DNA from: Ricordea florida | Lineage: Eukaryota; Cnidaria; Anthozoa; Corallimorpharia; Ricordeidae | Direction: 5' to 3' | DNA length: 64,000 nucleotides | Assembly (NCBI GenBank): GCA_949710005.1 | Contig: OX453282.1 | Span: 13,392,236-13,456,235 of the forward strand | Shown: positions 409-58,200 of the stretch, piece after piece | Layout: each line of letters starts with the position of its first letter | Position numbering within the stretch: position 1 is the first letter of the stretch | The notes under the pieces: generated by a model | What the model saw: only the letters and a program-made list of their open reading frames with translations | Database searches by the model: none | What the model was told of the DNA's origin: nothing | Made by a program: the position numbers and the translations under genes

Positions 409-410
409 AG

Positions 411-549: not shown

Positions 550-561
550 ACGCATGCGCAC
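550..561. promoter_or_regulatory. NRF1-like palindromic site (representative monomer)
   Basis: ACGCATGCGCAC. On the minus strand it reads GTGCGCATGCGT and matches the NRF1 consensus YGCGCAYGCGCR at all but one base. The core CGCATGCGCA appears unchanged in every monomer I read, although it holds several CpGs in a satellite that is otherwise poor in them. Its flank varies (TTACTACGC or TTCCTACGC). Confidence 0.4.
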
Positions 562-589
562 TTCATACAATTGCCTTTAAACCCTTAAA

Positions 590-32300: not shown

Positions 32301-35300
32301 ATGCGCACTTCATTCAATTGCCTTTAAACCCTTAAAATGAAAGATATTCTATCATATCTCGGCTTGCAGAATCTTTGCAATTCTGAAACTTTGCAGACTT
32401 GTAGTATAACGAAAGGCTAACATCTACGTAAAAAGTAACATTGATTGTAATTCGCAATCCTATTGTATTTCAGCTGTCAACATATTAGCTTAAGGCAGCT
32501 GATTGTAAAGCATACTGCTCAGACAGTACTAAAGTTCATCAAATCACTCCTCATTACAAAGATTAGTGACAAACATGCAATTTTCACCATCTTGTAGCAT
32601 TTAAAATGTAATTTAAAATCCATTTTATCTCGTGATTGTAGTCATTCTTAAGAACAAGATAAAATACAAAGAGATGGTTGCAAGGAAACTCAGCCTTACA
32701 GATTTTTGTCAAAACACCATATAAGAGATTGTATGGGCAGGAGGACCGTCATCTAGCGTGGTAAGTTATCGAATCATTTTGAATGTTTTATCTATCTGTC
32801 ATAGTAGGATATAGACGAAGGTTTAGATAACGAATGAAATTTTAATTGAAACGATTATATTTCCATGTGATTTAAGGAAAGAACTCTTTGTTACTACGCA
32901 TGCGCACTTCATACAATTGCCTTTAAACCCTTAAAATGAAAGATATTCTATCATATCTCGGCTTGCAGAATCTTTGCAATTCTGAAACTTTGCAGACTTG
33001 TAGTATAACGAAAGGCTAACATCTACGTAAAAAGTAAAATTGATTGTAATTCGCAATCCTATTGTATTTCAGCTGTCAACATATTAGCTTAAGGCAGCTG
33101 ATTGTAAAGCATACTGCTCAGACAGTACTAAAGTTCATCAAATCAGTCCTCATTACACAGATTAGTGACAAACATGCAATTTTCACCACCTTGTGGCATT
33201 TAAAATGTAATTTAAAATCCATTTCATCTCGTGATTGTATTCATTCTTAAGAACAACATAAAATACAAAGAGATGGTTGCAAGGAAACTCAGCCTTACAG
33301 ATTTTTGTCAAAACACCATATAAGAGATTGTATGGGCAGGAGGACCGTCATCTAGCGTGGTAAGTTATCGAATCATTTTGAATGTTTTATCTATCTGTCA
33401 TAGTAGGATATAGACGAAGGTTTAGATAACGAATGAAATTTTAATTGAAACGATTATATTTCCATGTGATTTAAGGAAAGAACTCTTTGTTACTACGCAT
33501 GCGCACTTCATACAATTGCCTTTAAACCCTTAAAATGAAAGATATTCTATCATATCTCGGCTTGCAGAATCTTTGCAATTCTGAAACTTTGCAGACTTGT
33601 AGTATAAAGAAAGGGTAACATCTACGTAAAAAGTAAAATTGATTGTAATTCGCAATCCTATTGTATTTCAGCTGTCAACATATTAGCTTAAGGCAGCTGA
33701 TTGTAAAGCATACTGCTCAGACAGTACTAAAGTTCATCAAATCAGTCCTCATTACACAGATTAGTGACAAACATGCAATTTTCACCACCTTGTGGCATTT
33801 AAAGTGTAATTTAAAATCCATTTTATCTCGGGATTGTAGTCATTCTTAAAAACAAGATACAATACAAAGAGATGGTTGCAAGGAAACTCAGCCTTACAGA
33901 TTTTTGTCAAAACACCATATAAGAGATTGTATGGGCAGGAGGACCGTCATCTAGCGTGGTAAGTTATAGAATCATTTTGAATGTTTTATCTATCTGTCAT
34001 AGTAGGATATAGACGAAGGTTTAGATAACGAATGAAATTTTAATTGAAACGATTATATTTCCATGTGATTTAAGGAAAGAACTCTTTGTTACTACGCATG
34101 CGCACTTCATACAATTGCCTTTAAATCCTTAAAATGAAAGATATTCTATCATATCTCGGCTTGCAGAATCTTTGCAATTCTGAAACTTTGCAGACTTGTA
34201 GTATAAAGAAAGGGTAACATCTACGTAAAAAGTAAAATTGATTGTAATTCGCAATCCTATTGTATTTCAGCTGTCAACATATTAGCTTAAGGCAGCTGAT
34301 TGTAAAGCATACTGCTCAGACAGTACTAAAGTTCATCAAATCAGTCCTCATTACACAGATTAGTGACAAACATGCAATTTTATCCACCTTGTAGCATTTA
34401 AAATGTAATTTAAAATCCATTTTATCTCGTGATTGTAGTCATTCTTAAGAACAAGGTATTAATACAAAGAGATGGTTGCAAGGAAACTCAGCCTTACAGA
34501 TTTTTGTCAAAACACCATATAAGAGATTGTATGGGCAGGAGGACCGTCATCTAGCGTGGTAAGTTATCGAATCATTTTGAATGTTTTATCTATCTGTCAT
34601 AGTAGGATATAGACGAAGGTTTAGATAACGAATGAAATTTTAATTGAAACGATTATATTTCCATGTGATTTAAGGAAAGAACTCTTTGTTACTACGCATG
34701 CGCACTTCATACAATTGCCTTTAAACCCTTAAAATGAAAGATATTCTATCATATCTCGGCTTGCAGAATCTTTGCAATTCTGAAACTTTGCAGACTTGTA
34801 GTATAACGAAAGGCTAACATCTACGTAAAAAGTAAAATTGATTGTAATTCGCAATCCTATTGTATTTCAGCTGTCAACATATTAGCTTAAGGCAGCTGAT
34901 TGTAAAGCATACTGCTCAGACAGTACTAAAGTTCATCAAATCAGTCCTTATTACACAGATTAGTGACAAACATGCAATTTTCACCACCTTGTGGCATTTA
35001 AAATTTAATTTAAAATCCATTTTATCTCGTGATTGTAGTCATTCTTAAGAAAAGGATAAAATACAAAGAGATGGTTGCAAGGAAACTCAGCCTTACAGGT
35101 TTTTGTCAAAACACCATATAAGAGATTGTATGGACAGGAGGACCGTCATCTAGCGTGGTAAGTTATCGAATCATTTTGAATGTTTTATCTATCTGTCATA
35201 GTAGGATATAGACGAAGGTTTAGATAACGAATGAAATTTTAATTGAAACGATTATATTTCCATGTGATTTAAGGAAAGAACTCTTTGTTACTACGCATGC

Positions 35301-36540
35301 GCACTTCATACAATAGCCTTTAAACCCTTAAAATGAAAGATATTCTATCATATCTCGGCTTGCAGAATCTTTGCAATTCTGAAACTTTGCAGACTTGTAG
35401 TATAACGAAAGGCTAACATCTACGTAAAAAGTAAAATTGATTGTAATTCGCAATCCTATTGTATTTCAGCTGTCAACATATTAGCTTAAGGCAGCTGATT
35501 GTAAAGCATACTGCTCAGACAGTACTAAAGTTCATCAAATCAGTCCTCATTACACAGATTAGTGACAAACATGCAATTTTATCCACCTTGTAGCATTTAA
35601 AATGTAATTTAAAATCCATTTTATCTCGTGATTTTAGTCATTCTTAAGAACAAGGTATTAATACAAAGAGATGGTTGCAAGGAAACTCAGCCTTACAGAT
35701 TTTTGTCAAAACACCATATAAGAGATTGTATGGGCAGGAGGACCGTCATCTAGCGTGGTAAGTTATCGAATCATTTTGAATGTTTTATCTATCTGTCATA
35801 GTAGGATATAGACGAAGGTTTAGATAACGAATGAAATTTTAATTGAAACGATTATATTTCCATGTGATTTAAGGAAAGAACTCTTTGTTACTACGCATGC
35901 GCACTTCATACAATTGCCTTTAAACCCTTAAAATGAAAGATATTCTATCATATCTCGGCTTGCAGAATCTTTGCAATTCTGAAACTTTGCAGACTTGTAG
36001 TATAACGAAAGGCTAACATCTACGTAAAAAGTAAAATTGATTGTAATTCGCAATCCTATTGTATTTCAGCTGTCAACATATTAGCTTAAGGCAGCTGATT
36101 GTAAAGCATACTGCTCAGACAGTACTAAAGTTCATCAAATTGTCCTCATTACACAGATTAGTGACAAACATGCAATTTTCACCACCTTGTAGCATTTAAA
36201 ATGTAATTTAAAATCAATTTTATCTCGTGATTGTAGTCATTCTTAAGAACAAGATAAAATACAAAGAGATGGTTGCAAGGAAACTCAGCCTTACAGATTT
36301 TTGTCAAAACACCATATAAGAGATTGTATGGGCAGGAGGACCGTCATCTAGCGTGGTAAGTTATCGAATCATTTTGAATGTTTTATCTATCTGTCATAGT
36401 AGGATATAGACGAAGGGTTAGATAACGAATGAAATTTTAATTGAAACGATTATATTTCCATGTGATTTAAGGAAAGAACTCTTTGTTACTACGCATGCGC
36501 ACTTCATACAATTGCCTTTAAACCCTTAAAATGAAAGATA

Positions 36541-39500
36541 TTCTATCATATCTCGGCTTGCAGAATCTTTGCAATTCTGAAACTTTGCAGACTTGTAGTA
36601 TAAGGAAAGGGTAACATCTACGTAAAAAGTAAAATTGATTCTAATTCGCAATCCTATTGTATTTCAGCTGTCAACATATTCGCTTAAGGCAGCTGATTGT
36701 AAAGCATACTGCTCAGACAGTACTAAAGTTCATCAAATCACTCCTCATTACACAGATTAGTGACAAACATGCAATTTTCACCACCTTGTGGCATTTAAAA
36801 TGTAATTTAAAATCCATTTTATCTCGGGATTGTAGTCATTCTTAAAAACAAGATACAATACAAAGAGATGGTTGCAAGGAAACTCAGCCTTACAGATTTT
36901 TGTCAAAACACCATATAAGAGATTGTATGGGCAGGAGGACCGTCATCTAGCGTGGTAAGTTATCGAATCATTTTGAATGTTTTATCTATCTGTCATAGTA
37001 GGATATAGACGAAGGTTTAGATAACGAATGAAATTTTAATTGAAACGATTATATTTCCATGTGATTTAAGGAAAGAACTCTTTGTTACTACGCATGCGCA
37101 CTTCATACAATTGCCTTTAAACCCTTAAAATGAAAGATATTCTATCATATCTCGGCTTGCAGAATCTTTGCAATTCTGAAACTTTGCAGACTTGTAGTAT
37201 AACGAAAGGCTAACATCTACGTAAAAAGTAAAATTGATTGTAATTCGCAATCCTATTGTATTTCAGCTGTCAACATATTAGCTTAAGGCAGCTGATTGTA
37301 AAGCATACTGCTCAGACAGTACTAAAGTTCATCAAATCAGTCCTCATTACACAGATTAGTGACAAACATGCAATTTTCACCACCTTGTAGCATTTAAAAT
37401 GTAATTTAAAATCAATTTTATTTTGTGATTGTAGTCATTCTTAAGAACAAGATAAAATACAAAGAGATGGTTGCAAGGAAACTCAGCCCTACAGATTTTT
37501 GTCAAAACACCATATAAGAGATTGTATGGGCAGGAGGACCGTCATCTAGCGTGGTAAGTTATCGAATCATTTTGAATGTTTTATCTATCTGTCATAGTAG
37601 GATATAGACGAAGGTTTAGATAACGAATGAAATTTTAATTGAAACGATTATATTTCCATGTGATTTAAGGAAAGAACTCTTTGTTACTACGCATGCGCAC
37701 TTCATACAATTGCCTTTAAATCCTTAAAATGAAAGATATTCTATCATATCTCGGCTTGCAGAATCTTTGCAATTCTGAAACTTTGCAGACTTGTAGTATA
37801 ACGAAAGGCTAACATCTACGTAAAAAGCAAAATTGATTGTAATTCGAAATCCTATTGTATTTCAGCTGTCAACATATTAGCTTAAGGCAGCTGATTGTAA
37901 AGCATACTGCTCAGACAGTACTAAAGTTCATCAAATCAGTCCTCATTACACAGATTAGTGACAAACATGCAATTTTCACCACCTTGTAGCATTTAAAATG
38001 TAATTTAAAATCAATTTTATCTCGTGATTGTAGTCATTCTTAAGAACAAGATAAAATACAAAGAGATGGTTGCAAGGAAACTCAGCCTTACAGATTTTTG
38101 TCAAAACACCATATAAGAGATTGTATGGGCAGGAGGACCGTCATCTAGCGTGGTAAGTTATCAAATCATTTTGAATGTTTTATCTATCTGTCATAGTAGG
38201 ATATAGACGAAGGGTTAGATAACGAATGAAATTTTAATTGAAACGATTATATTTCCATGTGATTTAAGGAAAGAACTCTTTGTTACTACGCATGCGCACT
38301 TCATACAATTGCCTTTAAACCCTTAAAATGAAAGATATTCTATCATATCTCGGCTTGCAGAATCTTTGCAATTCTGAAACTTTGCAGAATTGTAGTATAA
38401 AGAAAGGGTAACATCTACGTAAAAAGTAAAATTGATTGTAATTCGCAATCCTATTGTATTTCAGCTGTCAACATATTAGCTTAAGGCAGCTGATTGTAAA
38501 GCATACTGCTCAGACAGTACTAAAGTTCATCAAATCAGTCCCCATTACACAGATTAGTGACAAACATGCAATTTTCACCACCTTGTGGCATTTAAAATGT
38601 AATTTAAAATCCATTTTATCTCGGGATTGTAGTCATTCTTAAAAACAAGATGCAATACAAAGAGATGGTTGCAAGGAAACTCAGCCTTACAGATTTTTGT
38701 CAAAACACCATATAAGAGATTGTATGGGCAGGAGGACCGTCATCTAGCGTGGTAAGTTATCGAATCATTTTGAATGTTTTATCTATCTGTCATAGTAGGA
38801 TATAGACGAAGGTTTAGATAATGAATGAAATTTTAATTGAAACGATTATATTTCCATGTGATTTAACAAAAGAACTTTTTGTTACTACGCATGCGCACTT
38901 CATACAATTGCCTTTAAACCCTTAAAATGAAAGATATTCTATCATATCTCGGCTTGCAGAATCTTTGCAATTCTGAAACTTTGCAGACTTGTAGTATAAC
39001 GAAAGGCTAACATCTTACTAAAAAGTAAAATTGATTGTAATTCGCAATCCTATTGTATTTCAGCTGTCAACATATTAGCTTAAGGCAGCTGATTGTAAAG
39101 CATACTGCTCAGACAGTACTAAAGTTCATCAAATCAGTCCTCATTACACAGATTAGTGACAAACATGCAATTTTCACCACCTTGTAGCATTTAAAATGTA
39201 ATTTAAAATCAATTTTATTTTGTGATTGTAGTCATTCTTAAGAACAAGATAAAATACAAAGAGATGGTTGCAAGGAAACTCACCCCTACAGATTTTTGTC
39301 AAAACACCATATAAGAGATTGTATGGGCAGGAGGACCGTCATCTAGCGTGGTAAGTTATCGAATCATTTTGAATGTTTTATCTATCTGTCATAGTAGGAT
39401 ATAGACGAAGGTTTAGATAACGAATCAAATTTTAATTGAAACGATTATATTTCCATGTGATTTAAGGAAAGAACTCTTTGTTACTACGCATGCGCACTTC

Positions 39501-42500
39501 ATACAATTGCCTTTAAACCCTTAAAATGAAAGATGTTCTATCATATCTCGGCTTGCAGAATCTTTGCAATTCTGAAACTTTGCAGACTTGTAGTATAAAG
39601 AAAGGGTAACATCTACGTAAAAAGTAAAATTGATTGTAATTCGCAATCCTATTGTATTTCAGCTGTCAACATATTAGCTTAAGGCAGCTGATTGTAAAGC
39701 ATACTGCTCAGACAGTACTAAAGTTCATCAAATCAGTCCTCATTACACAGATTAGTGACAAACATGCAATTTTCACCACCTTGTGGCATTTAAAATGTAA
39801 TTTAAAATCCATTTTATCTCGTGATTGTATTCATTCTTAAGAACAACATAAAATACAAAGAGATGGTTGCAAGGAAACTCAGCCTTACAGATTTTTGTCA
39901 AAACACCATATAAGAGATTGTATGGGCAGGAGGACCGTCATCTAGCGTGGTAAGTTATCGAATCATTTTGAATGTTTTATCTATATGTCATAGTAGGATA
40001 TAGACGAAGGTTTAGATAACGAATTAAATTTTAATTGAAACGATTATATTTCCATGTGATTTAAGGAAACAACTCTTTGTTACTACGCATGCGCACTTCA
40101 TACAATTGCCTTTAAACCCTTAAAATGAAAGATATTCTATCATATCTCGGCTTGCAGAATCTTTGCAATTCTGAAACTTTGCATACTTGTAGTATAAAGA
40201 AAGAATAACATCTACGTAAAAAGTAAAATTGATTGTAATTCGCAATCCTATTGTATTTCAGCTGTCAACATATTAGCTTAAGGCAGCTGATTGTAAAGCA
40301 TACTGCTCAGACAGTACTAAAGTTCATCAAATCAGTCCTCATTACACAGATTAGTGACAAACATGCAATTTTCACCACCTTGTGGCATTTAAAATGTAAT
40401 TTAAAATCCATTTTATCTCGTGATTGTAGTCATTCTTAAGAAAAGGATAAAATACAAAGAGATGGTTGCAAGGAAACTCAGCCTTAAGGGTTTTTGTCAA
40501 AACACCATATAAGAGATTGTATGGACAGGAGGACCGTCATCTAGCGTGGTAAGTTATCGAATCATTTTGAATGTTTTATCTATCTGTCATAGTAGGGTAT
40601 AGACGAAGGTTTAGATAACGAATGAAATTTTAATTGAAACGATTATATTTCCATGTGATTTAAGGAAAGAACTCTTTGTTACTACGCATGCGCACTTCAT
40701 ACAATTGCCTTTAAACCCTTAAAATGAAAGATATTCTATCATATCTCGGCTTGCAGAATCTTTGCAATTCTGAAACTTTGCAGACTTGTAGTATAACGAA
40801 AGGCTAACATCTACGTAAAAAGTAAAATTGATTGTAATTCGCAATCCTATTGTATTTCAGCTGTCAACATATTAGCTTAAGGCAGCTGATTGTAAAGCAT
40901 ACTGCTCAGACAGTACTAAAGTTCATCAAATCAGTCCTCATTACACAGATTAGTGACAAACATGCAATTTTCACCACCTTGTGGCATTTAAAATGTAATT
41001 TAAAATCCATTTTATCTCGGGATTATAGTCATTCTTAAAAACAAGATACAATACAAAGAGATGGTTGCAAGGAAACTCAGCCTTACAGATTTTTGTCAAA
41101 ACACCATATAAGAGATTGTATGGGCAGGAGGACCGTCATCTAGCGTGGTAAGTTATCGAATCATTTTGAATGTTTTATCTATCTGTCATAGTAGGATATA
41201 GACGAAGGTTTAGATAACGAATGAAATTTTAATTGAAACGATTATATTTCCATGTGATTTAAGGAAAGAACCCTTTGTTACTACGCATGCGCACTTCATA
41301 CAATTGCCTTTAAACCCTTAAGATGAAAGATATTCTATCATATCTCGGCTTGCAGAATCTTTGCAATTCTGAAACTTTGCAGACTTGTAGTATAACGAAA
41401 GGCTAATATCTACGTAAAAAGTAAAATTGATTGTAATTCGCAATCCTATTGTATTTCAGCTGTCAACATATTAGCTTAAGGCAGCTGATTGTAAAGCATA
41501 CTGCTCAGACAGTACTAAAGTTCATCAAATTGTCCTCATTACACAGATTAGTGACAAACATGCAATTTTCACCACCTTGTAGCATTTAAAATGTAATTTA
41601 AAATCAATTTTATTTTGTGATTGTAGTCATTCTTAAGAACAAGATAAAATACAAAGAGATGGTTGCAAGAAAACTCAGCCCTACAGATTTTTGTCAAAAC
41701 ACCATATAAGAGATTGTATGGGCAGGAGGACCGTCATCTAGCGTGGTAAGTTATCGAATCATTTTGAATGTTTTATCTATCTGTCATAGTAGGATATAGA
41801 CGAAGGTTTAGATAACGAATGAAATTTTAATTGAAACGATTATATTTCCATGTGATTTAAGGAAAGAACTCTTTGTTACTACGCATGCGCACTTCATACA
41901 ATTGCCTTTAAATCCTTAAAATGAAAGATATTCTATCATATCTCGGCTTGCAGAATCTTTGCAATTCTGAAACTTTGCAGACTTGTAGTATAACTAAAGG
42001 CTAACATCTACGTAAAAAGTAAAATTGATTGTAATTCGAAATCCTATTGTATTTCAGCTGTCAACATATTAGCTTAAGGCAGCTGATTGTAAAGCATACT
42101 GCTCAGACAGTACTAAAGTTCATCAAATCAGTCCTCATTACACAGATTAGTGACAAACATGCAATTTTAACCTTATTGTAGCATTTAAAATGTAATTTAA
42201 AATCAATTTTATCTCGTGATTGTAGTCATTCTTAAGAACAAGATAAAATACAAAGAGATGGTTGCAAAGAAACTCAGCCTTACAGATTTTTGTCAAAACA
42301 CCATATAAGAGATTGTATGGGCAGGAGGACCGTCATCTAGCGTGGTAAGTTATCGAATCATTTTGAATGTTTTATCTATCTGTCATAGTAGGATATAGAC
42401 GAAGGGTTAGATAACGAATGAAATTTTAATTGAAACGATTATATTTCCATGTGATTTAAGGAAAGAACTCTTTGTTACTACGCATGCGCACTTCATACAA

Positions 42501-43727
42501 TTGCCTTTAAACCCTTAAAATGAAAGATATTCTATCATATCTCGGCTTGCAGAATCTTTGCAATTCTGAAACTTTGCAGTCTTGTAGTATAAAGAAAGGG
42601 TAACATCTACGTAAAAAGTAAAATTGATTGTAATTCGCAATCCTATTGTATTTCAGCTGTCAACATATTAGCTTAAGGCAGCTGATTGTAAAGCATACTG
42701 CTCAGACAGTACTAAAGTTCATCAAATCAGTCCTCATTACACAGATTAGTGACAAACATGCAATTTTCACCACCTTGTGGCATTTAAAATGTAATTTAAA
42801 ATCCATTTTATCTCGGGATTGTAGTCATTCTTAAAAACAAGATACAATACAAAGAGATGGTTGCAAGGAAACTCAGCCTTACAGATTTTTGTCAAAACAC
42901 CATATAAGAGATTGTATGGGCAGGAGGACCGTCATCTAGCGTGGTAAGTTATCGAATCATTTTGAATGTTTTATCTATCTGTCATAGTAGGATATAGACG
43001 AAGGTTTAGATAACGAATGAAATTTTAATTGAAACGATTATATTTCCATGTGATTTAAGGAAAGAACTCTTTGTTACTACGCATGCGCACTTCATACAAT
43101 TGCCTTTAAACCCTTAAAATGAAAGATATTCTATCATATCTCGGCTTGCAGAATCTTTGCAATTCTGAAACTTTGCAGACTTGTAGTATAACGAAAGGCT
43201 AACATCTACGTAAAAAGTAAAATTGATTGTAATTCGCAATCCTATTGTATTTCAGCTGTCAACATATTAGCTTAAGGCAGCTGATTGTAAAGCATACTGC
43301 TCAGACAGTACTAAAGTTCATCAAATCAGTCCTCATTACACAGATTAGTGACAAACATGCAATTTTCACCACCTTGTAGCATTTAAAATGTAATTTAAAA
43401 TCAATTTTATTTTGTGATTGTAGTCATTCTTAAGAACAAGATAAAATACAAAGAGATGGTTGCAAGGAAACTCACCCCTACAGATTTTTGTCAAAACACC
43501 ATATAAGAGATTGTATGGGCAGGAGGACCGTCATCTAGCGTGGTAAGTTATCGAATCATTTTGAATGTTTTATCTATCTGTCATAGTAGGATATAGACGA
43601 AGGTTTAGATAACGAATGAAATTTTAATTGAAACGATTATATTTCCATGTGATTTAAGGAAAGAACTCTTTGTTACTACGCATGCGCACTTCATACAATT
43701 GCCTTTAAATCCTTAAAATGAAAGATA
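36541..43727 (+). repeat. Second three-monomer higher-order family p-q-r (1,797 bp) with an interruption
   Basis: Monomer p carries TCTCGGGATTG (or GGGATTATAG) with GATACAATAC, q carries TTTTATTTTGTGATTG, and r carries GAAGGGTTAG. They occur as p-q-r at 36541-38337, p-q at 38338-39535, p-q-r at 40734-42529 and p-q at 42530-43727. Two foreign monomers (39536-40733; one with TTGTATTCATTC and AACAACATAAA, one B-like) interrupt the series. The register changes by -1 bp near 41531. Confidence 0.7.
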
Positions 43728-45737
43728 TTCTATCATATCTCGGCTTGCAGAATCTTTGCAATTCTGAAACTTTGCAGACTTGTAGTATAAAGAAAGGGTA
43801 ACATCTACGTAAAAAGTAAAATTGATTGTAATTCGCAATCCTATTGTATTTCAGCTGTCAACATATTAGCTTAAGGCAGCTGATTGTAAGGCATACTGCT
43901 CAGACAGTACTAAAGTTCATCAAATCAGTCCTCATTACAAAGATTAGTGACAAACATGCAATTTTCCCAACCTTGTAACATTTAAAATGGAATTTAAAAT
44001 CCATTTTATCTCGGGATTGTAGTCATTCTTAAAAACAAGATAAAATACAAAGAGATGGTTGCAAGGAAACTCAGCCGTACAGATTTTTGTCAAAACACCA
44101 TATAAGAGATTGTATGGGCAGGAGGACCGTCATCTAGCGTGGTAAGTTATCAAATTATTTTGAATGTTTTATCTATCTGTCATAGTAGGATATAGACGAA
44201 GGTTTAGATAACGAATGAAATTTTAATTGAAACGATTATATTTCCATGTGATTTAAGGAAAGAACTCTTTGTTACTACGCATGCGCACTTCATACAATTG
44301 CCTTTAAACCCTTAAAATGAAAGATATTCTATCATATCTCGGCTTGCAGAATCTTTTCAATTCTGAAACTTTGCAGACTTGTAGTATAACGAAAGGGTAA
44401 CATCTACGTAAAAAGTAAAATTGATTGTAATTCGCAATCCTATTGTATTTCAGCTGTCAACATATTAGCTTAAGGCAGCTGATTGTAAAGCATACTGCTC
44501 AGACAGCACTAAAGTTCATCAAATCAGTCCTCATTACACAGATTAGTGACAAACATGCAATTTTCACCACCTTGTAGCATTTAAAATGTAATTTAAAATC
44601 AATTTTATCTCGTGATTGTAGTCATTCTTAAGAAAAAGATAAAATACAAAGAGATGGTTGCAAGGAAACTCAGCCTTACAGATTTTTGTCAAAACACCAT
44701 ATAAGAGATTGTATGGGCAGGAGGACCGTCATCTAGCGTGGTAAGTTATCGAATCATTTTGAATGTTTTATCTATCTGTCATAGTAGGATATAGACGAAG
44801 GCTTAGATAACGAATGAAATTTTAATTGAAACGATTATATTTCCATGTGATTTAAGGAAAGAACTCTTTGTTACTACGCATGCGCACTTCATACAATTGC
44901 CTTTAAACCCTTAAAATGAAAGATATTCTATCATATCTCGGCTTGCAGAATCTTTGCATTTCTGAAACTTTGCAGACTTGTAGTATAACGAAAGGCTAAC
45001 ATCTACGTAAAAAGTAAAATTGATTGTAATTCGCAATCCTATTGTATTTCAGCTGTCAACATATTAGCTTAAGGCAGCTGATTGTAAAGCATACTGCTCA
45101 GACAGTACTAAAGTTCATCAAATCAGTCCTCATTACACAGATTAGTGACAAACATGCAATTTTCACCATCTTGTAGCATTTAAAATGTAATTTAAAATCC
45201 ATTTTATCTCCTTATTGTAGTCATTCTTAAGAACAAGATAAAATAAAAAGAGATGGTTGCAAGGAAACTCAGCCTTACAGATTCTTGTCAAAACACCATA
45301 TAAGAGATTGTATGGGCAGGAGGGCCGTCATCTAGCGTGGTAAGTTATCGAATCATTTTGAATGTTTTATCTATCTCTCATAATAAGATATAGACGAAGG
45401 TTTAGATAACGAATGAAATTTTAATTGAGACGATTATATTTCCATGTGATTTAAGGAAAGAACTCTTTGTTACTACGCATGCGCACTTCATACAATTGCC
45501 TTTAAACCCTTAAAATGAAAGATATTCTATCATATCTGGGCTTGCAGAATCTTTGCAATTCTGAAACTTTGCAGACTTGTAGTATAACGAAAGGCTAACA
45601 TCTACGTAAAAAGTAAAATTGATTGTAATTCGCAATCCTATTGTATTTCAGCTGTCAACATATTAGCTTAAGGCAGCTGATTGTAAAGCATACTGCTCAG
45701 ACAGTACTAAAGTTCATCAAATCAGTCCTCATTACAC

Positions 45738-45740
45738 AGA
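45738..45740. repeat. Target site duplication, left copy (AGA)
   Basis: AGA at monomer positions 214-216 immediately before the element. It is repeated immediately after it, and the uninterrupted monomers contain it once. Confidence 0.8.
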
Positions 45741-46330
45741 CACTAGACCAAAAGCCACATTTTAATCACATTTAAGTTGCATTAAACAACCCTAGAACTT
45801 GGGTCCACATTTAAGTCTAGTTTAATTGTTTAAAACATCACTTAAATCAATGCTATTGTCATAGTGGGGTCTAAGTGCCCCTGAAACATACATTATACAC
45901 CTGAAGCCATTTAAGTTCCTGAAATGGAGATTAAACATTCTCTAAATTAATGGTTGTGTTTTGGTTCCCATAAATGACTATTTATTGATGTATAACAGGA
46001 ATAGTAAGAATTAAAATTGTCCAGTGTGTAACATCACTATGCACTTCATTGCTTAAGTATTTTCAAATTGTCTCTTCTCCATAACAGAATCATAACACCA
46101 AAACATGAAAGAAATATAAAGGTGTCTTGACATTTTGAACTCAGTTCAATAAAAAGGAATATAATCAGTTAAGAAAAAATATCATCTGCAACCTACAGGG
46201 CAAGCAAAATGACCATATTTCACTAATCACACTAAGACAAGTGAATAAAGAAACTTTAATTCTATCCGTATATGTAGTCTTCATGTCCATACAATCTAAT
46301 ATAGTCATGTACCTTTATTAGCTTATGCAT
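45741..46330. repeat. Left subterminal region of the transposon with CATTTAAG repeats
   Basis: AT-rich, with no open frame of interest. CATTTAAGTY occurs three times (45769-45778, 45808-45817, 45908-45917) and ATTAAACAT once (45930-45938), with several looser TTTAA/TTAAA words. CACTA transposases are known to bind multiple short subterminal motifs, and this would be the left binding region. The remainder (about 45960-46330) is plain AT-rich sequence with two AATAAA words (46148 and 46244) of unknown meaning. Confidence 0.6.
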
Positions 46331-46677
46331 CAAAATTTTGATACTGGTGCTACTCAAAATATATCTTGTTCATCACATTCATCGGAAATCCACAATCGCC
46401 GACGGCGACGCCTTAGCGATTGAAAAGAACATTTCGTTTTTGTGTGACGACGATACGAAGATGAATGTGCAAAGGACTTTCCGCAAGTTTCCACTTATCA
46501 CAGAAGAAAGGGCTTGGAGTGTTTGCGACGAAACTTGTTTCAGGATAATCTTCGGCCTTTTTGTTGATTATCAAAGACAAAAACCGCAATCGGTAATGGC
46601 TAATTTGCGGCAAGAGCAATGAATGGCCCTATTGTTATCTCAAGTGCAATTTGCATTTGGTTTTTCTGCTTCATTGC
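46331..46677. other. Transposon core, left part: mixed-composition unique sequence, no recognised gene
   Basis: Open frames on both strands overlap here (46338-46622 plus, 46413-46619 minus), but both open with TTG, not ATG, and neither matches a family I know. The minus strand has an arginine-coding run (CGTCGCCGTCGGCG at about 46398-46411), followed by a stop within about 15 codons. The base composition differs from both the AT-rich element ends and the satellite, which supports a separate origin for the core, such as capture of genomic sequence. Confidence 0.4.
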
Positions 46678-46712
46678 AATTGGTTGGTTTTCGATAGTAA
46701 GCCAATCAGAAG
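46678..46712. promoter_or_regulatory. Facing CCAAT boxes, possible bidirectional promoter within the transposon
   Basis: ATTGG words (the inverted CCAAT box) lie at about 46678-46685, and a direct GCCAATCAGA at 46701-46710. CCAAT(C/G) boxes bind NF-Y in eukaryotes and pairs of this kind are common in divergent promoters. The surrounding stretch, about 46390-47060, is richer in G, C and CpG (for example GACGGCGACGCC at 46401) than the rest of the window. No TATA box is evident. The role is inferred from motifs only. Confidence 0.3.
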
Positions 46713-46841
46713 GCGAGAGTGTCGATCGCGGGATGTATGTTTCATGTAGTTAGTGTCATTTGGAAGTTCGCATTCTAGCTTCGTTTCTTGCCGTGTGATC
46801 GATCGTTTTTTACATTTGGTTACAGTTCACTGTTTTCGGTA

Positions 46842-47162
46842 ATGATGACTTTACTAGGTGCTCAACAGGAACGACAGCTTCTTATTATTGAAAGGATGAG
46901 CGGAAGAATGGATACGATTTGTGACAGTCAAAAGAGACTCGAGGATGCCAATGCAAGCCTGCGACAGGGGAATGAAAGATTAAGAAACGAATTGCAAAAG
47001 AAGGAGAAGCAGGGCAACCTACGTGGTTTGAGAAATTCATGGCGGAGTTCTACTATTGAAATAATCAAACAAGTTTACTGCAAGCCTGGGTGGGTTTGCT
47101 ACAAAGCAACAAACAATACAACAACAAATCAAATATACACTGTACATGTAATGACCAAGTAA
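46842..47162 (+). CDS. Hypothetical 106-residue reading frame inside the transposon
   Basis: An open frame starting at a double ATG (46842 and 46845) and ending at TAA. I do not recognise it. Residues about 15-55 are rich in Glu, Arg, Lys, Gln and Leu (for example KRLEDANASL and NERLRNELQKK), which suits a coiled coil. The C-terminal third is Asn/Thr-rich and shows no family signature. It lies in the least AT-rich part of the element, downstream of CCAAT boxes, so it could be the first exon of a captured host gene or the remains of an element gene. No signal peptide, membrane segment or transposase motif (DDE/D) is seen. The open frame extends further upstream without another ATG. It may also be non-coding. 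Confidence 0.25.
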   Translation: MMTLLGAQQERQLLIIERMSGRMDTICDSQKRLEDANASLRQGNERLRNELQKKEKQGNLRGLRNSWRSSTIEIIKQVYCKPGWVCYKATNNTTTNQIYTVHVMTK

Positions 47163-47553
47163 AAAACACCAGTGTCTATGAAGGAATAAATTTGGTGGGT
47201 GAATTAAAAGATGCTTATGAAATGAATATGGCCGAAAGAATAAAGGTGAAGATTTTAAAATTACAATATAATTATGATCATTTAATTACCCTTAAACATG
47301 ACTTTTACACACCTTTAGAATGTGTTTAAGGTTCTAATTAAACATAATGTAAAAGTCAGAAGATATTTTGGTTGTATTTAATGGTCACTTAAACATGCAT
47401 TAAGCTTTAGCCTTAAGGGTGTTTAAGGCGGGTTTAAGTTGAAATTAAACATATTTTTAAGTTCTTAAACCTGTAATTAAATGTAGTAAACATAACTTTA
47501 AGCCAAAATTAATTTCTGTTTAAGACTGCTTAAATGTTCTTTTTCTCCTTGTG
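47163..47553. repeat. Right subterminal region of the transposon with CTTAAA repeats
   Basis: Mirrors the left side. CTTAAATG at 47529-47536 is the exact reverse complement of the left CATTTAAG and lies at a similar distance from the end. CTTAAACATG occurs twice (47291-47300, 47388-47397), ATTAAACAT twice (47337-47345, 47444-47452), and GTTTAAG-type words are frequent from 47320 to 47530. No convincing gene: the frame at 47090-47329 overlaps this repeat zone and looks accidental. Confidence 0.6.
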
Positions 47554-47556
47554 AGA
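47554..47556. repeat. Target site duplication, right copy (AGA)
   Basis: AGA directly after the terminal GTG, followed by TTAGTGACAAAC, the normal continuation of the monomer. A 3-bp duplication is the length typical of CACTA-type transposition. Confidence 0.8.
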
Positions 47557-50500
47557 TTAGTGACAAACATGCAATTTTCACCACCTTGTAGCATTTTAAA
47601 TGTAATTTAAAATCCATTTTATCTCGTGATTGTAGTCATTCTTAAGAACAAGATAAAGTACAAAGAGATGGTTGCAAGGAAACTCAGCCTTACAGATTTT
47701 TGTCAAAACACCATATAAGAGATTGTATGGGCAGGAGGACCGTCATCTAGCGTGGTAAGTTATCGAATCATTTTGAATGTTTTATCTATCTGTCATAGTA
47801 AGATATAGACGAAGGTTTAGATAACGAATGAAATTTTAATTGAGACGATTATATTTCCATGTGATTTAAGGAAAGAACTCTTTGTTACTACGCATGCGCA
47901 CTTCATACAATTGCCTTTAAACCCTTAAAATGAAAGATATTCTATCATATCTCGGCTTGCAGAATCTTTGCAATTCTGAAACTTTGCAGACTTGTAGTAT
48001 AACGAAAGGCTAACATCTACGTAAAAAGTAAAATTGATTGTAATTCGCAATCCTATTGTATTTCAGCTGTCAACATATTAGCTTAAGGCAGCTGATTGTA
48101 AAGCATACTGCTCAGACAGTACTAAAGTTCATCAAATCAGACCTCAATACACAGATTAGTGACAAACATGCAATTTTCACCACCTTGTAGCATTTAAAAT
48201 GTAATTTAAAATCCTTATTATCTCGTGATTGTAGTCATTCTTAAGAACAAGATAAAATACACAGAGATGGTTGCAAGGAAACTCAGCCTTACAGATTTTT
48301 GTCAAAACACCATATAAGAGATTGTATGGGCAGGAGGACCGTCATCTAGCGTGGTAAGTTATCGAATCATTTTGAATGTTTTATCTATCTGTCATAGTAG
48401 GATATAGACGAAGGTTTAGATAACGAAAGAAATTTTAATTGAAACGATTATATTTCCATGTGATTTAAGGAAAGAACTCTTTGTTACTACGCATGCGCAC
48501 TTCATACAATTGCCTTTAAACCCTTAAAATGAAAGATATTCTATCATATCTCGGCTTGCAGAATCTTTGCAATTCTGAAACTTTGCAGACTTGTAGTATA
48601 ACGAAAGGCTAACATCTACGTAAAAAGTAAAATTGATTGTAATTCGCAATCCTATTGTATTTCAGCTGTCAACATATTAGCTTAAGGCAGCTGATTGTAA
48701 AGCATACTGCTCAGAAAGTACTAAAGTTCATCAAATCAGTCCTCATTACACAGATTAGTGACAAACATGCAATTTTCACCACCTTGTAGCATTTTAAATG
48801 TAATTTAAATTCCATTTTATCTCGTGATTGTAGTCATTCTTAAGAACAAGATAAAGTACAAAGAGATGGTTGCAAGGAAACTCAGCCTTACAGATTTTTG
48901 TCAAAACACCATATAAGAGATTGTATGGGCAGGAGGACCGTCATCTAGCGTGGTAAGTTATAGAATCATTTTGAATGTTTTATCTATCTGTCATAGTAGG
49001 ATATAGACCAAGGTTTAGATAACGAATGAAATTTTAATTGAAACGATTATATTTCCATGTGATTTAAGGAAAGAACTCTTTGTTACTACGCATGCGCACT
49101 ACATACAATTGCCTTTAAACCCTTAAAATGAAAGATAATCTATCATATCTCGGCTTGCAGAATCTTTTCAACTCTGTAACTTTGCATACTTGTAGTATAA
49201 CGAAAGGCTAACATCTACGTAAAAAGTAAAATTGATTGTAGTTCGCAATCCTATTGTATTTCAGCTGTCAACATATTAGCTTAAGGCAGCTGATTGTAAA
49301 GCATACTTCTCAGACAGTACTAAAGTTCATCAAATCAGTCCTCATTACACAGATTAGTGACAAACATGCAATTTTCACCATCTTGTAGCATTTAAAATGT
49401 AATTTAAAATCCATTTATCTCCTTATTGTAGTCATTCTTAAGAACAAGATAAAATACAAAGAGATGGTTGCAAGGAAACTCAGCCTTACAGATTTTTGTC
49501 AAAACACCATATAAGAGATTGTATGGGCAGGAGGACCGTCATCTAGCGTGGTAAGTTATCGAATCATTTTGAATGTTTTATCTATCTGTCATAGTAAGAT
49601 ATAGACGAAGGTTTAGATAACGAATGAAATTTTAATTGAGACGATTATATTTCCATGTGATTTAAGGAAAGAACTCTTTGTTACTACGCATGCGCACTTC
49701 ATACAATTGCCTTTAAACCCTTAAAATGAAAGATATTCTATCATATCTCGGCTTGCAGAATCTTTGCAATTCTGAAACTTTGCAGACTTGTAGTATAACG
49801 AAAGGGTAACATCTACGTAAAAAGTAAAATTGATTGTAATTCGCAATCCTATTGTATTTCAGCTGTCAACATATTAGCTTAAGGCAGCTGATTGTAAAGC
49901 ATACTGCTCAGACAGTACTAAAGTTCATCAAATCAGACCTCGATACACAGATTAGTGACAAACATGCAATTTTCACCACCTTGTAGCATTTAAAATGTAA
50001 TTTAAAATCCTTATTATCTCGTGATTGTAGTCATTCTTAAGAACAAGATAAAATACACAGAGATGGTTGCAAGGAAACTCAGCCTTACAGATTTTTGTCA
50101 AAACAACATATAAGAGATTGTATGGGCAGGAGGACCGTCATCTAGAGTGGTAAGTTATCGAATCATTTTGAATGTTTTATCTATCTGTCATAGTAGGATA
50201 TAGACGAAGGTTTAGATAACGAAAGAAATTTTAATTGAAACGATTATATTTCCATGTGATTTAAGGAAAGAACTCTTTGTTACTACGCATGCGCACTTCA
50301 TACAATTGCCTTTAAACCCTTAAAATGAAAGATATTCTATCATATCTCGGCTTGCAGAATCTTTGCAATTCTGAAACTTTGCAGACTTGTAGTATAACGA
50401 AAGGCTAACATCTACGTAAAAAGTAAAATTGATTGTAATTCGCAATCCTATTGTATTTCCGCTGTCAACATATTAGCTTAAGGCAGCTGATTGTAAAGCA

Positions 50501-52231
50501 TACTGCTCAGACAGTACTAAAGTTCATCAAATCAGTCCTCATTACACAGATTAGTGACAAACATGCAATTTTCACCACCTTGTAGCATTTAAAATGTAAT
50601 TTAAAATCCATTTTATCTCGTGATTGTAGTCATTCTTAAGAAAAAGATAAAATACAAAGAGATGGTTGCAAGGAAACTCAGCCTTACAGATTTTTGTCAA
50701 AACACCATATAAGAGATTGTATGGGCAGGAGGACCGTCATCTAGCGTGGTAAGTTATCGAATCATTTTGAATGTTTTATCTATCTGTCATAGTAAGATAT
50801 AGACGAAGGTTTAGATAACGAATGAAATTTTAATTGAGACGATTATATTTCCATGTGATTTAAGGAAAGAACTCTTTGTTACTACGCATGCGCACTTCAT
50901 ACAATTGCCTTTAAACCCTTAAAATGAAAGATATTCTATCATATCTCGGCTTGCAGAATCTTTGCAATTCTGAAACTTTGCAGACTTGTAGTATAACGAA
51001 AGGCTAACATCTACGTAAAAAGTAAAATTGATTGTAGTTCGCAATCCTATTGTATTTCAGCTGTCAACATATTAGCTTAAGGCAGCTGATTGTAAAGCAT
51101 ACTTCTCAGACAGTACTAAAGTTCATCAAATCAGTCCTCATTACACAGATTAGTGACAAACATGCAATTTTATCCACCTTGTAGCATTTAAAATGTAATT
51201 TAAAATCCATTTTATCTCGTGATTGTAGTCATTCTTAAGAACAAGATATAATACAAAGAGATGGTTGCAAGGAAACTCAGCCTTACAGATTTTTGTCAAA
51301 ACACCATATAAGAGATTGTTTGGGCAGGAGGACCGTCATCTAGCGTGGTAAGTTATCGAATCATTTTGAATGTTTTATCTATCTGTCATAGTAGGATAAA
51401 GACGAAGGTTTAGATAACGAATGAAATTTTAATTGAGACGATTATATTTCCATGTGATTTAAGGAAAGAACTCTTTGTTACTACGCATGCGCACTTCATA
51501 CAATTGCCTTTAAACCTTTAAAATGAAAGATATTCTATCATATCTCGGCTTGCAGAATCCTTGCAATTCTAAAACTTTGCAGACTTGTAGTATAACGAAA
51601 GGCTAACATCTACGTAAAAAGTAAAATTGATTGTAATTCGCAATCCTATTGTATTTCAGCTGTCAACATATTAGCTTAAGGCAGCTGATTGTAAAGCATA
51701 CTGCTCAGACAGTACTAAAGTTCATCAAATCAGTCCTCATTACACAGATTAGTGACAAACATGCAATTTTCACCATCTTGTAGCATTTAAAATGTAATTT
51801 AAAATCCATTTTATCTCGTGATTGTAGTCATTCTTAAGAACAAGATAAAATACAAAAAGATGGTTGCAAGGAAACTCAGCCTTACAGATTTTTGTCAAAA
51901 CACCATATAAGAGATTGTATGGGCAGGAGGATTGTCATCTAGCGTGGTAAGTTATTGAATCATTTTGAATGTTTTATCTATCTGTCATAGTAAGATATAG
52001 ACGAAGGTTTAGATAACGAATGAAATTTTAATTGAGACGATTATATTTCCATGTGATTTAAGGAAAGAACTCTTTGTTACTACGCATGCGCACTTCATAC
52101 AATTGCCTTTAAACCCTTAAAATGAAAGATATTCTATCATATCGCGGCTTGCAGAATCTTTGCAATTCTGAAACTTTGCAGACTTGTAGTATAACGAAAG
52201 GCTAACATCTACGTAAAAAGTAAAATTGATT

Positions 52232-55200
52232 GTAATTCGAAATCCTATTGTATTTCAGCTGTCAACATATTAGCTTAAGGCAGCTGATTGTAAAGCATAC
52301 TGCTCAGACAGTACTAAAGTTCATCAAATCAGTCCTCATTACACAGATTAGTGACAAACATGCAATTTTCACCTTATTGTAGCATTTAAAATGTAATTTA
52401 AAATCAATTTTATCTCGTGATTGTAGTCATTCTTAAGAACAAGATAAAATACAAAGAGATGGTTGCAAGGAAACTCAGCCTTACAGATTTTTGTCAAAAC
52501 ACCATATAAGAGATTGTATGGGCAGGAGGACCGTCATCTAGCGTGGTAAGTTATCGAATCATTTTGAATGTTTTATCTATCTGTCATAGTAGGATATAGA
52601 CGAAGGGTTAGATAACGAATGAAATTTTAATTGAAACGATTATATTTCCATGTGATTTAAGGAAAGAACTCTTTGTTACTACGCATGCGCACTTCATACA
52701 ATTGCCTTTAAACCCTTAAAATGAAAGATATTCTATCATATCTCGGCTTGCAGAATCTTTGCAATTCTGAAACTTTGCAGTCTTGTAGTATAAAGAAAGG
52801 GTAACATCTACGTAAAAAGTAAAATTGATTGTAATTCGCAATCCTATTGTATTTCAGCTGTCAACATATTAGCTTAAGGCAGCTGATTGTAAAGCATACT
52901 GCTCAGACAGTACTAAAGTTCATCAAATCAGTCCTCATTACACAGATTAGTGACAAACATGCAATTTTCACCACCTTGTGGCATTTAAAATGTAATTTAA
53001 AATCCATTTTATCTCGGGATTGTAGTCATTCTTAAAAACAAGATACAATACAAAGAGATGGTTGCAAGGAAACTCAGCCTTACAGATTTTTGTCAAAACA
53101 CCATATAAGAGATTGTATGGGCAGGAGGACCGTCATCTAGCGTGGTAAGTTATCGAATCATTTTGAATGTTTTATCTATCTGTCATAGTAGGATATAGAC
53201 GAAGGTTTAGATAACGAATGAAATTTTAATTGAAACGATTATATTTCCATGTGATTTAAGGAAAGAACTCTTTGTTACTACGCATGCGCACTTCATACAA
53301 TTGCCTTTAAACCCTTAAAATGAAAGATATTCTATCATATCTCGGCTTGCAGAATCTTTGCAATTCTGAAACTTTGCAGACTTGTAGTATAACGAAAGGC
53401 TAACATCTACGTAAAAAGTAAAATTGATTGTAATTCGCAATCCTATTGTATTTCAGCTGTCAACATATTAGCTTAAGGCAGCTGATTGTAAAGCATACTG
53501 CTCAGACAGTACTAAAGTTCATCAAATCAGTCCTCATTACACAGATTAGTGACAAACATGCAATTTTCACCACCTTGTAGCATTTAAAATGTAATTTAAA
53601 ATCAATTTTATTTTGTGATTGTAGTCATTCTTAAGAACAAGATAAAGTACAAAGAGATGGTTGCAAGGAAACTCACCCCTACAGATTTTTGTCAAAACAC
53701 CATATAAGAGATTGTATGGGCAGGAGGACCGTCATCTAGCGTGGTAAGTTATCGAATCATTTTGAATGTTTTATCTATCTGTCATAGTAGGATATAGACG
53801 AAGGTTTAGATAACGAATGAAATTTTAATTGAAACGATTATATTTCCATGTGATTTAAGGAAAGAACTCTTTGTTACTACGCATGCGCACTTCATACAAT
53901 TGCCTTTAAATCCTTAAAATGAAAGATATTCTATCATATCTCGGCTTGCAGAATCTTTGCAATTCTGAAACTTTGCAGACTTGTAGTATAAAGAAAGGGT
54001 AACATCTACGTAAAAAGTAAAATTGATTGTAATTCGCAATCCTATTGTATTTCAGCTGTCAACATATTAGCTTAAGGCAGCTGATTGTAAGGCATACTGC
54101 TCAGACAGTACTAAAGTTCATCAAATCAGTCCTCATTACAAAGATTAGTGACAAACATGCAATTTTCCCAACCTTGTAACATTTAAAATGGAATTTAAAA
54201 TCCATTTTATCTCGGGATTGTAGTCATTCTTAAAAACAAGATAAAATACAAAGAGATGGTTGCAAGGAAACTCAGCCGTACAGATTTTTGTCAAAACACC
54301 ATATAAGAGATTGTATGGGCAGGAGGACCGTCATCTAGCGTGGTAAGTTATCGAATTATTTTGAATGTTTTATCTATCTGTCATAGTAGGATATAGACGA
54401 AGGTTTAGATAACGAATGAAATTTTAATTGAAACGATTATATTTCCATGTGATTTAAGGAAAGAACTCTTTGTTACTACGCATGCGCACTTCATACAATT
54501 GCCCTTAAACCCTTAAAATGAAAGATATTCTATCATATCTCGGCTTGCAGAATCTTTTCAATTCTGAAACTTTGCAGACTTGTAGTATAACGAAAGGGTA
54601 ACATCTACGTAAAAAGTAAAATTGATTGTAATTCGCAATCCTATTGTATTTCAGCTGTCAACATATTAGCTTAAGGCAGCTGATTGTAAAGCATACTGCT
54701 CAGACAGCACTAAAGTTCATCAAATCAGTCCTCATTACACAGATTAGTGACAAACATGCAATTTTCACCACCTTGTAGCATTTAAAATGTAATTTAAAAT
54801 CAATTTTATCTCGTGATTGTAGTCATTCTTAAGAAAAAGATAAAATACAAAGAGATGGTTGCAAGGAAACTCAGCCTTACAGATTTTTGTCAAAACACCA
54901 TATAAGAGATTGTATGGGCAGGAGGACCGTCATCTAGCGTGGTAAGTTATCGAATCATTTTGAATGTTTTATCTATCTGTCATAGTAGGATATAGACGAA
55001 GGCTTAGATAACGAATGAAATTTTAATTGAAACGATTATATTTCCATGTGATTTAAGGAAAGAACTCTTTGTTACTACGCATGCGCACTTCATACAATTG
55101 CCTTTAAACCCTTAAAATGAAAGATATTCTATCATATCTCGGCTTGCAGAATCTTTGCATTTCTGAAACTTTGCAGACTTGTAGTATAACGAAAGGCTAA

Positions 55201-58200
55201 CATCTACGTAAAAAGTAAAATTGATTGTAATTCGCAATCCTATTGTATTTCCGCTGTCAACATATTAGCTTAAGGCAGCTGATTGTAAAGCATACTGCTC
55301 AGACAGTACTAAAGTTCATCAAATCAGTCCTCATTACACAGATTAGTGACAAACATGCAATTTTCACCAACTTGTAACATTTTAAATGTAATTTAAAATC
55401 CATTTTATCTCGTGATTGTAGTCATTCTTAAGAACAAGATAAAGTACAAAGAGATGGTTGCAAGAAAACTCAGCCTTACAGATTTTAGTCAAAACACCAT
55501 ATAAGAGATTGTATGGGCTGGAGGACCGTCATCTAGCGTGGTAAGTTATAGAATCATTTTGAATGTTTTATCTATCTGTCATAGTAGGATATAGACGAAG
55601 GTTTAGATAACGAATGAAATTTTAATTGAAACGATTATATTTCCATGTGATTTAAGGAAAGAACTCTTTGTTACTACGCATGCGCACTACATACAATTGC
55701 CTTTAAACCCTTAAAATGAAAGATAATCTATCATATCTCGGCTTGCAGAATCTTTTCAACTCTGTAACTTTGCATACTTGTAGTATAACGAAAGGCTAAC
55801 ATCTACGTAAAAAGTAAAATTGATTGTAGTTCGCAATCCTATTGTATTTCAGCTGTCAACATATTAGCTTAAGGCAGCTGATTGTAAAGCATACTTCTCA
55901 GACAGTACTAAAGTTCATCAAATCAGTCCTCATTACACAGATTAGTGACAAACATGCAATTTTCACCATCTTGTAGCATTTAAAATGTAATTTAAAATCC
56001 ATTTATCTCCTTATTGTAGTCATTCTTAAGAACAAGATAAAATACAAAGAGATGGTTGCAAGGAAACTCAGCCTTACAGATTTTTGTCAAAACACCATAT
56101 AAGAGATTGTATGGTCAGGAGGACCGTCATCTAGCGTGGTAAGTTATCGAATCATTTTGAATGTTTTATCTATCTGTCATAGTAAGATATAGACGAAGGT
56201 TTAGATAACGAATGAAATTTTAATTGAGACGATTATATTTCCATGTGATTTAAGGAAAGAACTCTTTGTTACTACGCATGCGCACTTCATACAATTGCCT
56301 TTAAACCCTTAAAATGAAAGATATTCTATCATATCTCGGCTTGCAGAATCTTTGCAATTCTGAAACTTTGCAGACTTGTAGTATAACGAAAGGCTAACAT
56401 CTACGTAAAAAGTAAAATTGATTGTAATTCGCAATCCTATTGTATTTCAGCTGTCAACATATTAGCTTAAGGCAGCTGATTGTAAAGCATACTGCTCAGA
56501 CAGTACTAAAGTTCATCAAATCAGACCTCAATACACAGATTAGTGACAAACATGCAATTTTCACCACCTTGTAGCATTTAAAATGTAATTTAAAATCCTT
56601 ATTATCTCGTGATTGTAGTCATTCTTAAGAACAAGATAAAATACACAGAGATGGTTGCAAGGAAACTCAGCCTTACAGATTTTTGTCAAAACACCATATA
56701 AGAGATTGTATGGGCAGGAGGACCGTCATCTAGCGTGGTAAGTTATCGAATCATTTTGAATGTTTTATCTATCTGTCATAGTAGGATATAGACGAAGGTT
56801 TAGATAACGAAAGAAATTTTAATTGAAACGATTATATTTCCATGTGATTTAAGGAAAGAACTCTTTGTTACTACGCATGCGCACTTCATACAATTGCCTT
56901 TAAACCCTTAAAATGAAAGATATTCTATCATATCTCGGCTTGCAGAATCTTTGCAATTCTGAAACTTTGCAGACTTGTAGTATAACAAAAGGCTAACATC
57001 TACGTAAAAAGTAAAATTGATTGTAATTCGCAATCCTATTGTATTTCAGCTGTCAACATATTAGCTTAAGGCAGCTGATTGTAAAGCATACTGCTCAGAA
57101 AGTACTAAAGTTCATCAAATCAGCCCTTATTACACAGATTAGTGACAAACATGCAATTTTCACCACCTTGTAGCATTTTAAATGTAATTTAAATTCCATT
57201 TTATCTCGTGATTGTAGTCATTCTTAAGAACAAGATAAAGTGCAAAGAGATGGTTGCAAGGAAACTCAGCCTTACAGATTTTTGTCAAAACACCATATAA
57301 GAGATTGTATGGGCAGGAGGACCGTCATCTAGCGTGGTAAGTTATAGAATCATTTTGAATGTTTTATCTATCTGTCATAGTAGGATATAGACCAAGGTTT
57401 AGATAACGAATGAAATTTTAATTGAAACGATTATATTTCCATGTGATTTAAGGAAAGAACTCTTTGTTACTACGCATGCGCACTACATACAATTGCCTTT
57501 AAACCCTTAAAATGAAAGATAATCTATCATATCTCGGCTTGCAGAATCTTTTCAACTCTGTAACTTTGCATACTTGTAGTATAACGAAAGGCTAACATCT
57601 ACGTAAAAAGTAAAATTGATTGTAGTTCGCAATCCTATTGTATTTCAGCTGTCAACATATTAGCTTAAGGCAGCTGATTGTAAAGCATACTTCTCAGACA
57701 GTACTAAAGTTCATCAAATCAGTCCTCATTACACAGATTAGTGACAAACATGCAATTTTCACCATCTTGTAGCATTTAAAATGTAATTTAAAATCCATTT
57801 ATCTCCTTATTGTAGTCATTCTTAAGAACAAGATAAAATACAAAGAGATGGTTGCAAGGAAACTCAGCCTTACAGATTTTTGTCAAAACACCATATAAGA
57901 GATTGTATGGGCAGGAGGACCGTCATCTAGCGTGGTAAGTTATCGAATCATTTTGAATGTTTTATCTATCTGTCATAGTAAGATATAGACGAAGGCTTAG
58001 ATAACGAATGAAATTTTAATTGAGACGATTATATTTCCATGTGATTTAAGGAAAGAACTCTTTGTTACTACGCATGCGCACTTCATACAATTGCCTTTAA
58101 ACCCTTAAAATGAAAGATATTCTATCATATCTCGGCTTGCAGAATCTTTGCAATTCTGAAACTTTGCAGACTTGTAGTATAACGAAAGGCTAACATCTAC

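Follow-up and report, generated by a model that had tools for sequence, protein, structure and literature searches.

The 1813-bp insert at positions 45741..47553 (plus strand) of the window, i.e., the whole stretch of 64,000 bp that was analyzed, is read here as a CACTA/EnSpm transposon inserted into a satellite monomer, representing a double internal-deletion form of a two-gene element of ~10 kb and moved in trans, with a probability of roughly 96%. Its classification as a non-autonomous member of the CACTA/EnSpm superfamily is well supported, and full-length sister copies with 3-bp duplications delimit it as one element. The superfamily call had been made in a preliminary description from the letters of the window alone, and is upheld by the ends, by the 3-bp duplications and by a TNP2 transposase in a long relative. 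What began as a guess is thereby settled in favor of a CACTA element, of which the same genome holds sister copies along with a transposase frame that is uninterrupted.

The window (positions 1..64000, plus strand) is a satellite array of 599-bp monomers, defined by monomer anchors and a consensus, which is broken once, by the element. The spacings between the 104 monomer anchors are 599 bp in 92 instances, 600 bp in five, 598 bp in five and 2415 bp in one. An empty site was recovered with at most three edits at 102 of the 104 anchors (69 exact, 24 with one edit, seven with two and two with three) and was not found within that limit at the other two, so that the monomers, about 104 of which had been put forward as an empty-site reference, do serve as one. 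The left flank ATTACACAGA is followed by CACTAG...CTTGTG and then by the right flank AGATTAGTGA, and the empty site CACAGATTAG holds a single AGA, identifying the AGA at 45738..45740 as the left copy of the target site duplication; comparison with the other monomers places the right copy at 47554..47556 (neither copy has a strand). The duplication cannot exceed 3 bp, since a C precedes AGA whereas the last base of the element is G. Removal of the element and one AGA leaves a host monomer of 599 bp with 98.7% identity to the satellite consensus. The ends CACTAG and CTTGTG and the AGA duplication, as originally called, are thus exact to the base by virtue of the empty-site monomers.

The two termini form an imperfect terminal inverted repeat (left, 45741..45762, plus strand; right, 47532..47553, minus strand), in which 15 of 22 bases match; over end positions 7-25 there are 11 matches in 19, against a mean of 5.5 for random subterminal pairs (P 0.013). 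Further inward are three copies of CATTTAAG (element positions 29, 68 and 168), with CTTAAATG at position 1789. The reciprocal subterminal repeats that had been noted are indeed denser than chance at both ends: relative to 500 shuffles, the hexamers TTTAAG, CTTAAA, TTAAAC and GTTTAA are found eight times in the first 240 bp (the 5' cluster, 45741..45980; shuffle mean 0.92, maximum 5), 19 times in the last 280 bp (the 3' cluster, 47274..47553; mean 1.90, maximum 9) and not once in the middle 1293 bp (mean 2.92, maximum 10), both clusters being without strand. To our knowledge, short or imperfect terminal repeats are not diagnostic of a new CACTA subfamily. The earlier suggestion of terminal repeats of only ~6 bp that might mark an undescribed subfamily has to be abandoned, because the imperfect repeat spans about 22 bp and dense subterminal repeats are usual in CACTA elements; in the available part of PMC8978399 they belong to the usual description of these elements and extend, in plants, across several hundred bp. 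A search of the literature, as distinct from Repbase and Dfam, met no description of this CACTA family.

A longer relative with the same termini and a CACTA-type transposase, as had been envisaged for this element, exists in the same genome as a 9975-bp end pair (C7:17709904-17719878) with identical ends and an ATC duplication. It carries an uninterrupted minus-strand frame of 899 codons that matches Transposase_21/TNP2 with 57.1 bits (E 1.9e-15, cut-off 28.6). The residues D, D and E together with C(2)C and H(3)H are present in 16 of 16 aligned frames, i.e., the 899-codon frame and 15 others of more than 700 codons (loci L041-L070). A DDE triad with C(2)C and H(3-4)H between the second D and the E is given as the pattern of the CMC group in the available part of PMC12730594. 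When the 898-residue query was compared with the genome (51 of 285 candidates scored), at least six places were found to be 100% identical and stop-free over the full query, a seventh being 99% identical with two stops and an eighth 100% identical over residues 362-898 only. A single tandem duplication on C9 accounts for three of the six identical places, and a fourth is ~66 kb away on the same contig; the identity may therefore partly reflect duplication, not transposition.

The C9 duplication, from about position 8638582, contains three identical transposase frames with a period of 9978 bp. Both of its tandem junctions read ATAATGAAGTAG before CACTAGACCA, from which it follows that the duplicated unit starts at the left end of the element but that its other boundary is not the right end. 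An arrangement of perfect head-to-tail elements with a 3-bp spacer was considered for these copies and rejected by both junction reads. A genome search for Transposase_21 (PF02992) returned at least 61 matches from 73 candidates, with many other TNP2-type frames; it did not list the 9975-bp copy, which was found via its ends. The best long TNP2-type frames outside this CACTA family are 39-47% identical to the 899-codon transposase (51 of 285 candidates scored). Transposase loci L049-L051, which had been picked for their motif clusters, were dropped, the clusters being different sequence without these ends.

A second relative, the 6262-bp copy L075 (one copy of this length was read), has a CAC duplication and aligns with positions 1-604, 673-1322 and 1321-1813 of the window element at 90-92%, an identity too low for L075 to be the direct parent of the 1.8-kb form. 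It is without ~3.9 kb that include the transposase frame, and the preceding 566 bp are identical to the 9975-bp copy. On its minus strand is a fuller zinc-finger frame (22.2 bits, still under the cut-off), and on its plus strand a first frame like that of the window element is followed by putative later exons, the last open stretch having 122 codons (5224-5589). These later exons were assembled by eye on the basis of splice-like borders, giving a predicted second protein of 295 residues in which no Pfam family exceeds its cut-off. Since the 9975-bp copy was read at its ends and over 4501 bp of interior, up to C7:17714950, the second gene is known from the 6262-bp copy only.

Between the subterminal clusters, the window element contains a CpG-rich core (46371..46990, no strand) with 35 CpG dinucleotides and an observed/expected ratio of 1.30, which is a candidate divergent promoter. 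Outside the core, the 5' 630 bp have a single CpG (ratio 0.07) and the 3' 563 bp have four (0.31); the ratio of the satellite is 0.76. At 46354..46494 on the minus strand lies a broken remnant with a partial C2H2 zinc finger, presumably derived from the first exon of the transposase gene: it scores 20.7 bits for zf-C2H2, under the Pfam cut-off of 25.2, and among solved structures it matches the consensus zinc finger 1mey (E 2e-5) as well as, more weakly, other zinc fingers. At 46779..47162 on the plus strand, the frame list and the relatives point to an open frame of 127 codons, coiled-coil-like, as the probable first exon of the second gene, the later exons being absent; its single match among solved structures has an E of 0.89. 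The element has no stop-to-stop frame longer than 127 codons, Pfam and Rfam returned nothing above curated cut-offs for the frames of the window (for Pfam, 13 of the 20 listed), and no transposase family was detected in those 13. The window copy thus does not carry a transposase of its own, the mark of an autonomous element.

Alignment to the two relatives places two deletion junctions. At junction 1, element position 604/605 (46344..46345, no strand), the 9975-bp relative is ~4.39 kb longer and includes the transposase frame, and at junction 2, element position 1321/1322 (47061..47062, no strand), the 6262-bp relative is ~4.0 kb longer and includes the putative later exons of the second gene. 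Loss of gene bodies with retention of the ends is expected of internal deletions in cut-and-paste elements, and we infer that internal deletion was the route to the short form.

A different origin might be envisaged for the interior, in which the CpG-rich core and its two coding pieces are captured host gene DNA, as in a Pack-CACTA element, and not the promoter and first exons of the element itself. The sharp step in CpG content within the element would suit such a capture, and plant transposons, including CACTA elements, are known to capture genes according to the portion of the literature available to us. However, the 6262-bp relative holds most of the core in identical order, the minus-strand side of the core continues beside the transposase frame in the 9975-bp relative, and the 127-codon plus-strand frame is conserved in 33 of 35 aligned copies (the remaining two having a shifted frame of 92 codons), all of which make capture improbable.

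The double internal-deletion reading can be laid out as follows. The parent-type element of ~10 kb would carry a TNP2-type DDE transposase on its minus strand, probably with a zinc-finger first exon, and on its plus strand, divergent from the transposase gene, a coiled-coil protein encoded by several exons; for both genes, the arrangement of exons is deduced from the frames and their borders. Two internal deletions would have removed the bodies of both divergent genes, leaving a 1.8-kb form that retains the termini, the subterminal clusters, the CpG-rich stretch and parts of both first exons. The CpG-rich core would act as a divergent promoter and the subterminal repeats would bind proteins of the element, both roles being predicted from base composition and arrangement. 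Mobilization of the short form in trans, by the transposase of the long copies acting through common ends, is strongly implied, because the ends and duplications are common to short and long copies. Cut-and-paste transposition into the satellite monomer, with a staggered cut of 3 bp, would then have duplicated AGA.

A search of the same assembly, which comprises 48 contigs and 538 Mb, yielded 49 stretches from the 40 candidates that were scored out of 315, and the copies with the same ends and 3-bp duplications that the preliminary description led one to expect proved numerous. At least 26 full-length copies with 96-100% identity were found, the window copy included; all 26 have CAC...GTG ends and 24 of them, again counting the window copy, are flanked by an exact 3-bp duplication whose sequence differs between copies, the two without matching 3-bp flanks being L014 and L020. 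Of the remaining stretches, four begin to match only at position 107-422 (one of these, L030, forms the right portion of an end pair spanning 4843 bp), ten match from position 419 or 430 on, and nine match over positions 1-429. The latter nine join nine of the ten to form complete elements of 2414-2446 bp, all nine with an exact 3-bp duplication; for the tenth, L040, no left end was present within the stretch read. This 2.4-kb class (L031-L039) has ~600 bp extra at about element position 429, with inverted ends and short internal repeats, adjoining an 11-bp imperfect direct repeat. The extra stretch is absent from L075, for which reason a nested insertion is the simplest reading, i.e., it is probably another small transposon within the CACTA element.

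Nineteen of the 26 copies (L003-L021) have a mean identity of 99.56%, with three identical pairs, which marks a recent burst. A left-end 14-mer occurs 185 times in the genome, against five for a reversed-pattern control, and a right-end 15-mer 201 times, against one for its control. For 91 of the first 100 left ends listed, those up to C7:20.83 Mb, which is as far as the first 100 right ends extend, the nearest right end within 15 kb was sought (the nine beyond that point were set aside): 84 pair with a correctly oriented right end at 1.76 to 10 kb, and seven have no partner within that distance. The 84 paired lengths comprise 41 at 1.76-1.84 kb, two at ~2.0 kb, seven at 2.4 kb and 34 at 3.6-10 kb, with recurring lengths of 6262 (five), 6073 (five), 5639 (three) and 4677 bp (three). 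One of the 34 long pairs, C2:95524, is probably not a single element, given that its right end is common to a 1.8-kb copy.

Taken as a set of characters, the family has CAC...GTG ends, a 3-bp duplication without fixed sequence and both direct and inverted subterminal repeats and, in the full-length relative, a TNP2-type transposase with DDE, C(2)C and H(3)H, all of which are features by which CACTA/EnSpm elements are recognized. Chapaev and Chapaev3 elements, another CMC lineage, come close to this set: Chapaev also has CAC...GTG ends and duplications of 3 to 4 bp, and Chapaev3 shares with the present family the CAC...GTG ends, the 3-bp duplication and a CMC-type DDE transposase. However, the Chapaev3 elements examined in the available part of PMC4079192 all duplicate TWA between A and T, whereas TWA fits only two of the 24 duplications of 1.8-kb copies (TTA and TAA), and the transposase of the relative belongs to a different family, Transposase_21/TNP2, with a score above the cut-off, so that a Chapaev identity is very improbable. 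The notion of a stretch of unique DNA brought in by a rearrangement, or of a fault in the assembly, for which the presence of only one insert among the 104 monomers of the 64-kb window might speak, is refuted by the 25 further full-length copies elsewhere in the same genome, 23 of them with exact 3-bp duplications, and has next to no probability.

The flanks of the copies were compared with the satellite at 1500 bp per side for 30 loci, at 100 bp for ten, at 40 bp for L075 and at 20 and 26 bp for the 9975-bp copy, and the left-end stretches L072-L074 were compared whole. Satellite flanks are present in four of the 26 full-length copies, namely L001 (the window copy, ~99%), L017 (86-87%), L021 (84-85%) and L007 (~72%), which lie near monomer positions 433, 599, 499 and 399, respectively, each with empty sites in neighboring monomers. 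The right flank of the 9975-bp copy matches the satellite at 96% over 26 bp and its 20-bp left flank has no match; the short flanks of the other 2.4-kb, 6262-bp and L072-L074 stretches gave no satellite match, and a single weak match at L029 (36 bp, E 0.002) was not counted. As the window copy was met through lying in the satellite, the fair count is three of 25. A satellite 24-mer detects 7624 monomers (control, one), corresponding to at least 0.85% of the genome, which is a lower bound because the satellite versions that surround L017 and L007 escape the 24-mer (none of about five monomers detected in each case). The odds of three in 25 depend on the share of satellite assumed, with P 0.001 at 0.85%, 0.013 at 2%, 0.038 at 3%, 0.13 at 5% and 0.46 at 10%. 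Only L021, among the three other satellite copies, lies in the version counted by the 24-mer, and one of 25 at 0.85% gives P 0.19. A preference of the family for the satellite is therefore a lead, and the copies may equally well have survived better in arrays.

Within the array, positions 42313-51914 and 52514-60298 represent a recent duplication of 13 monomers at a lag of 14 (monomers 70-82 versus 84-96). Eleven of the 13 pairs differ at 0-4 sites and larger divergence is confined to the pairs at the element, 74/88 (11 sites) and 75/89 (22 sites); the empty monomer 89 is near-identical to monomers 78 and 92. In view of this divergence and likeness, conversion may have replaced the empty counterpart of the insertion site, perhaps following loss of the element, with a chance overlap that we estimate at roughly 1 in 10. 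The four private variants of the host monomer all lie to the left of the element (45308-45740); the mean per monomer is 0.95, and four or more are seen in seven of 103 monomers. The satellite monomers also contain, at ACGCATGCGCAC, a palindromic ACGCATGCGCA-like site, which we take to resemble an NRF1 site, and the stretches around it are among those that agree within three mismatches across all four satellite versions. Viral contigs, a set from which records of the same genome were possibly omitted, yielded no match to the satellite and no relative of the plus-strand frame.

The broader proposal, that one satellite family is where this CACTA family preferentially inserts or best persists and that the short form acts as a mobile promoter, divergent and of the CpG-island type, is doubtful as a combination; if true, the element would repeatedly seed promoters and breakpoints into satellite arrays. 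The exact empty sites of the satellite provide a clean case for studying target choice, deletion formation and loss of CACTA elements in satellite DNA, and the partly kept head-to-head layout offers a test of non-autonomous CACTA copies as mobile promoters. Two aspects may interest specialists, namely the divergent arrangement of the genes and a possible association with the satellite.

The family resembles plant CACTA/En-Spm elements in its CAC...GTG ends, 3-bp duplication, subterminal repeats and, in long members, a TNP2-type transposase. Plant En-Spm has defective, dSpm-type derivatives with internal deletions, to which the short form is likewise comparable as an internal-deletion form. In En/Spm, one transcript yields both proteins, whereas in the present family the CpG-rich core separates the transposase frame from the second gene, the two being arranged head to head. 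Among animals, the available part of PMC4298943 describes Spongebob (EnSpm-4N1_HM) of Hydra and insects as a non-autonomous CACTA/EnSpm element, and the window family is like it in superfamily and in having non-autonomous copies in an animal; Hydra Spongebob has CCC ends and 2-bp duplications (the TRC group), whereas the window family has CAC ends and 3-bp duplications.
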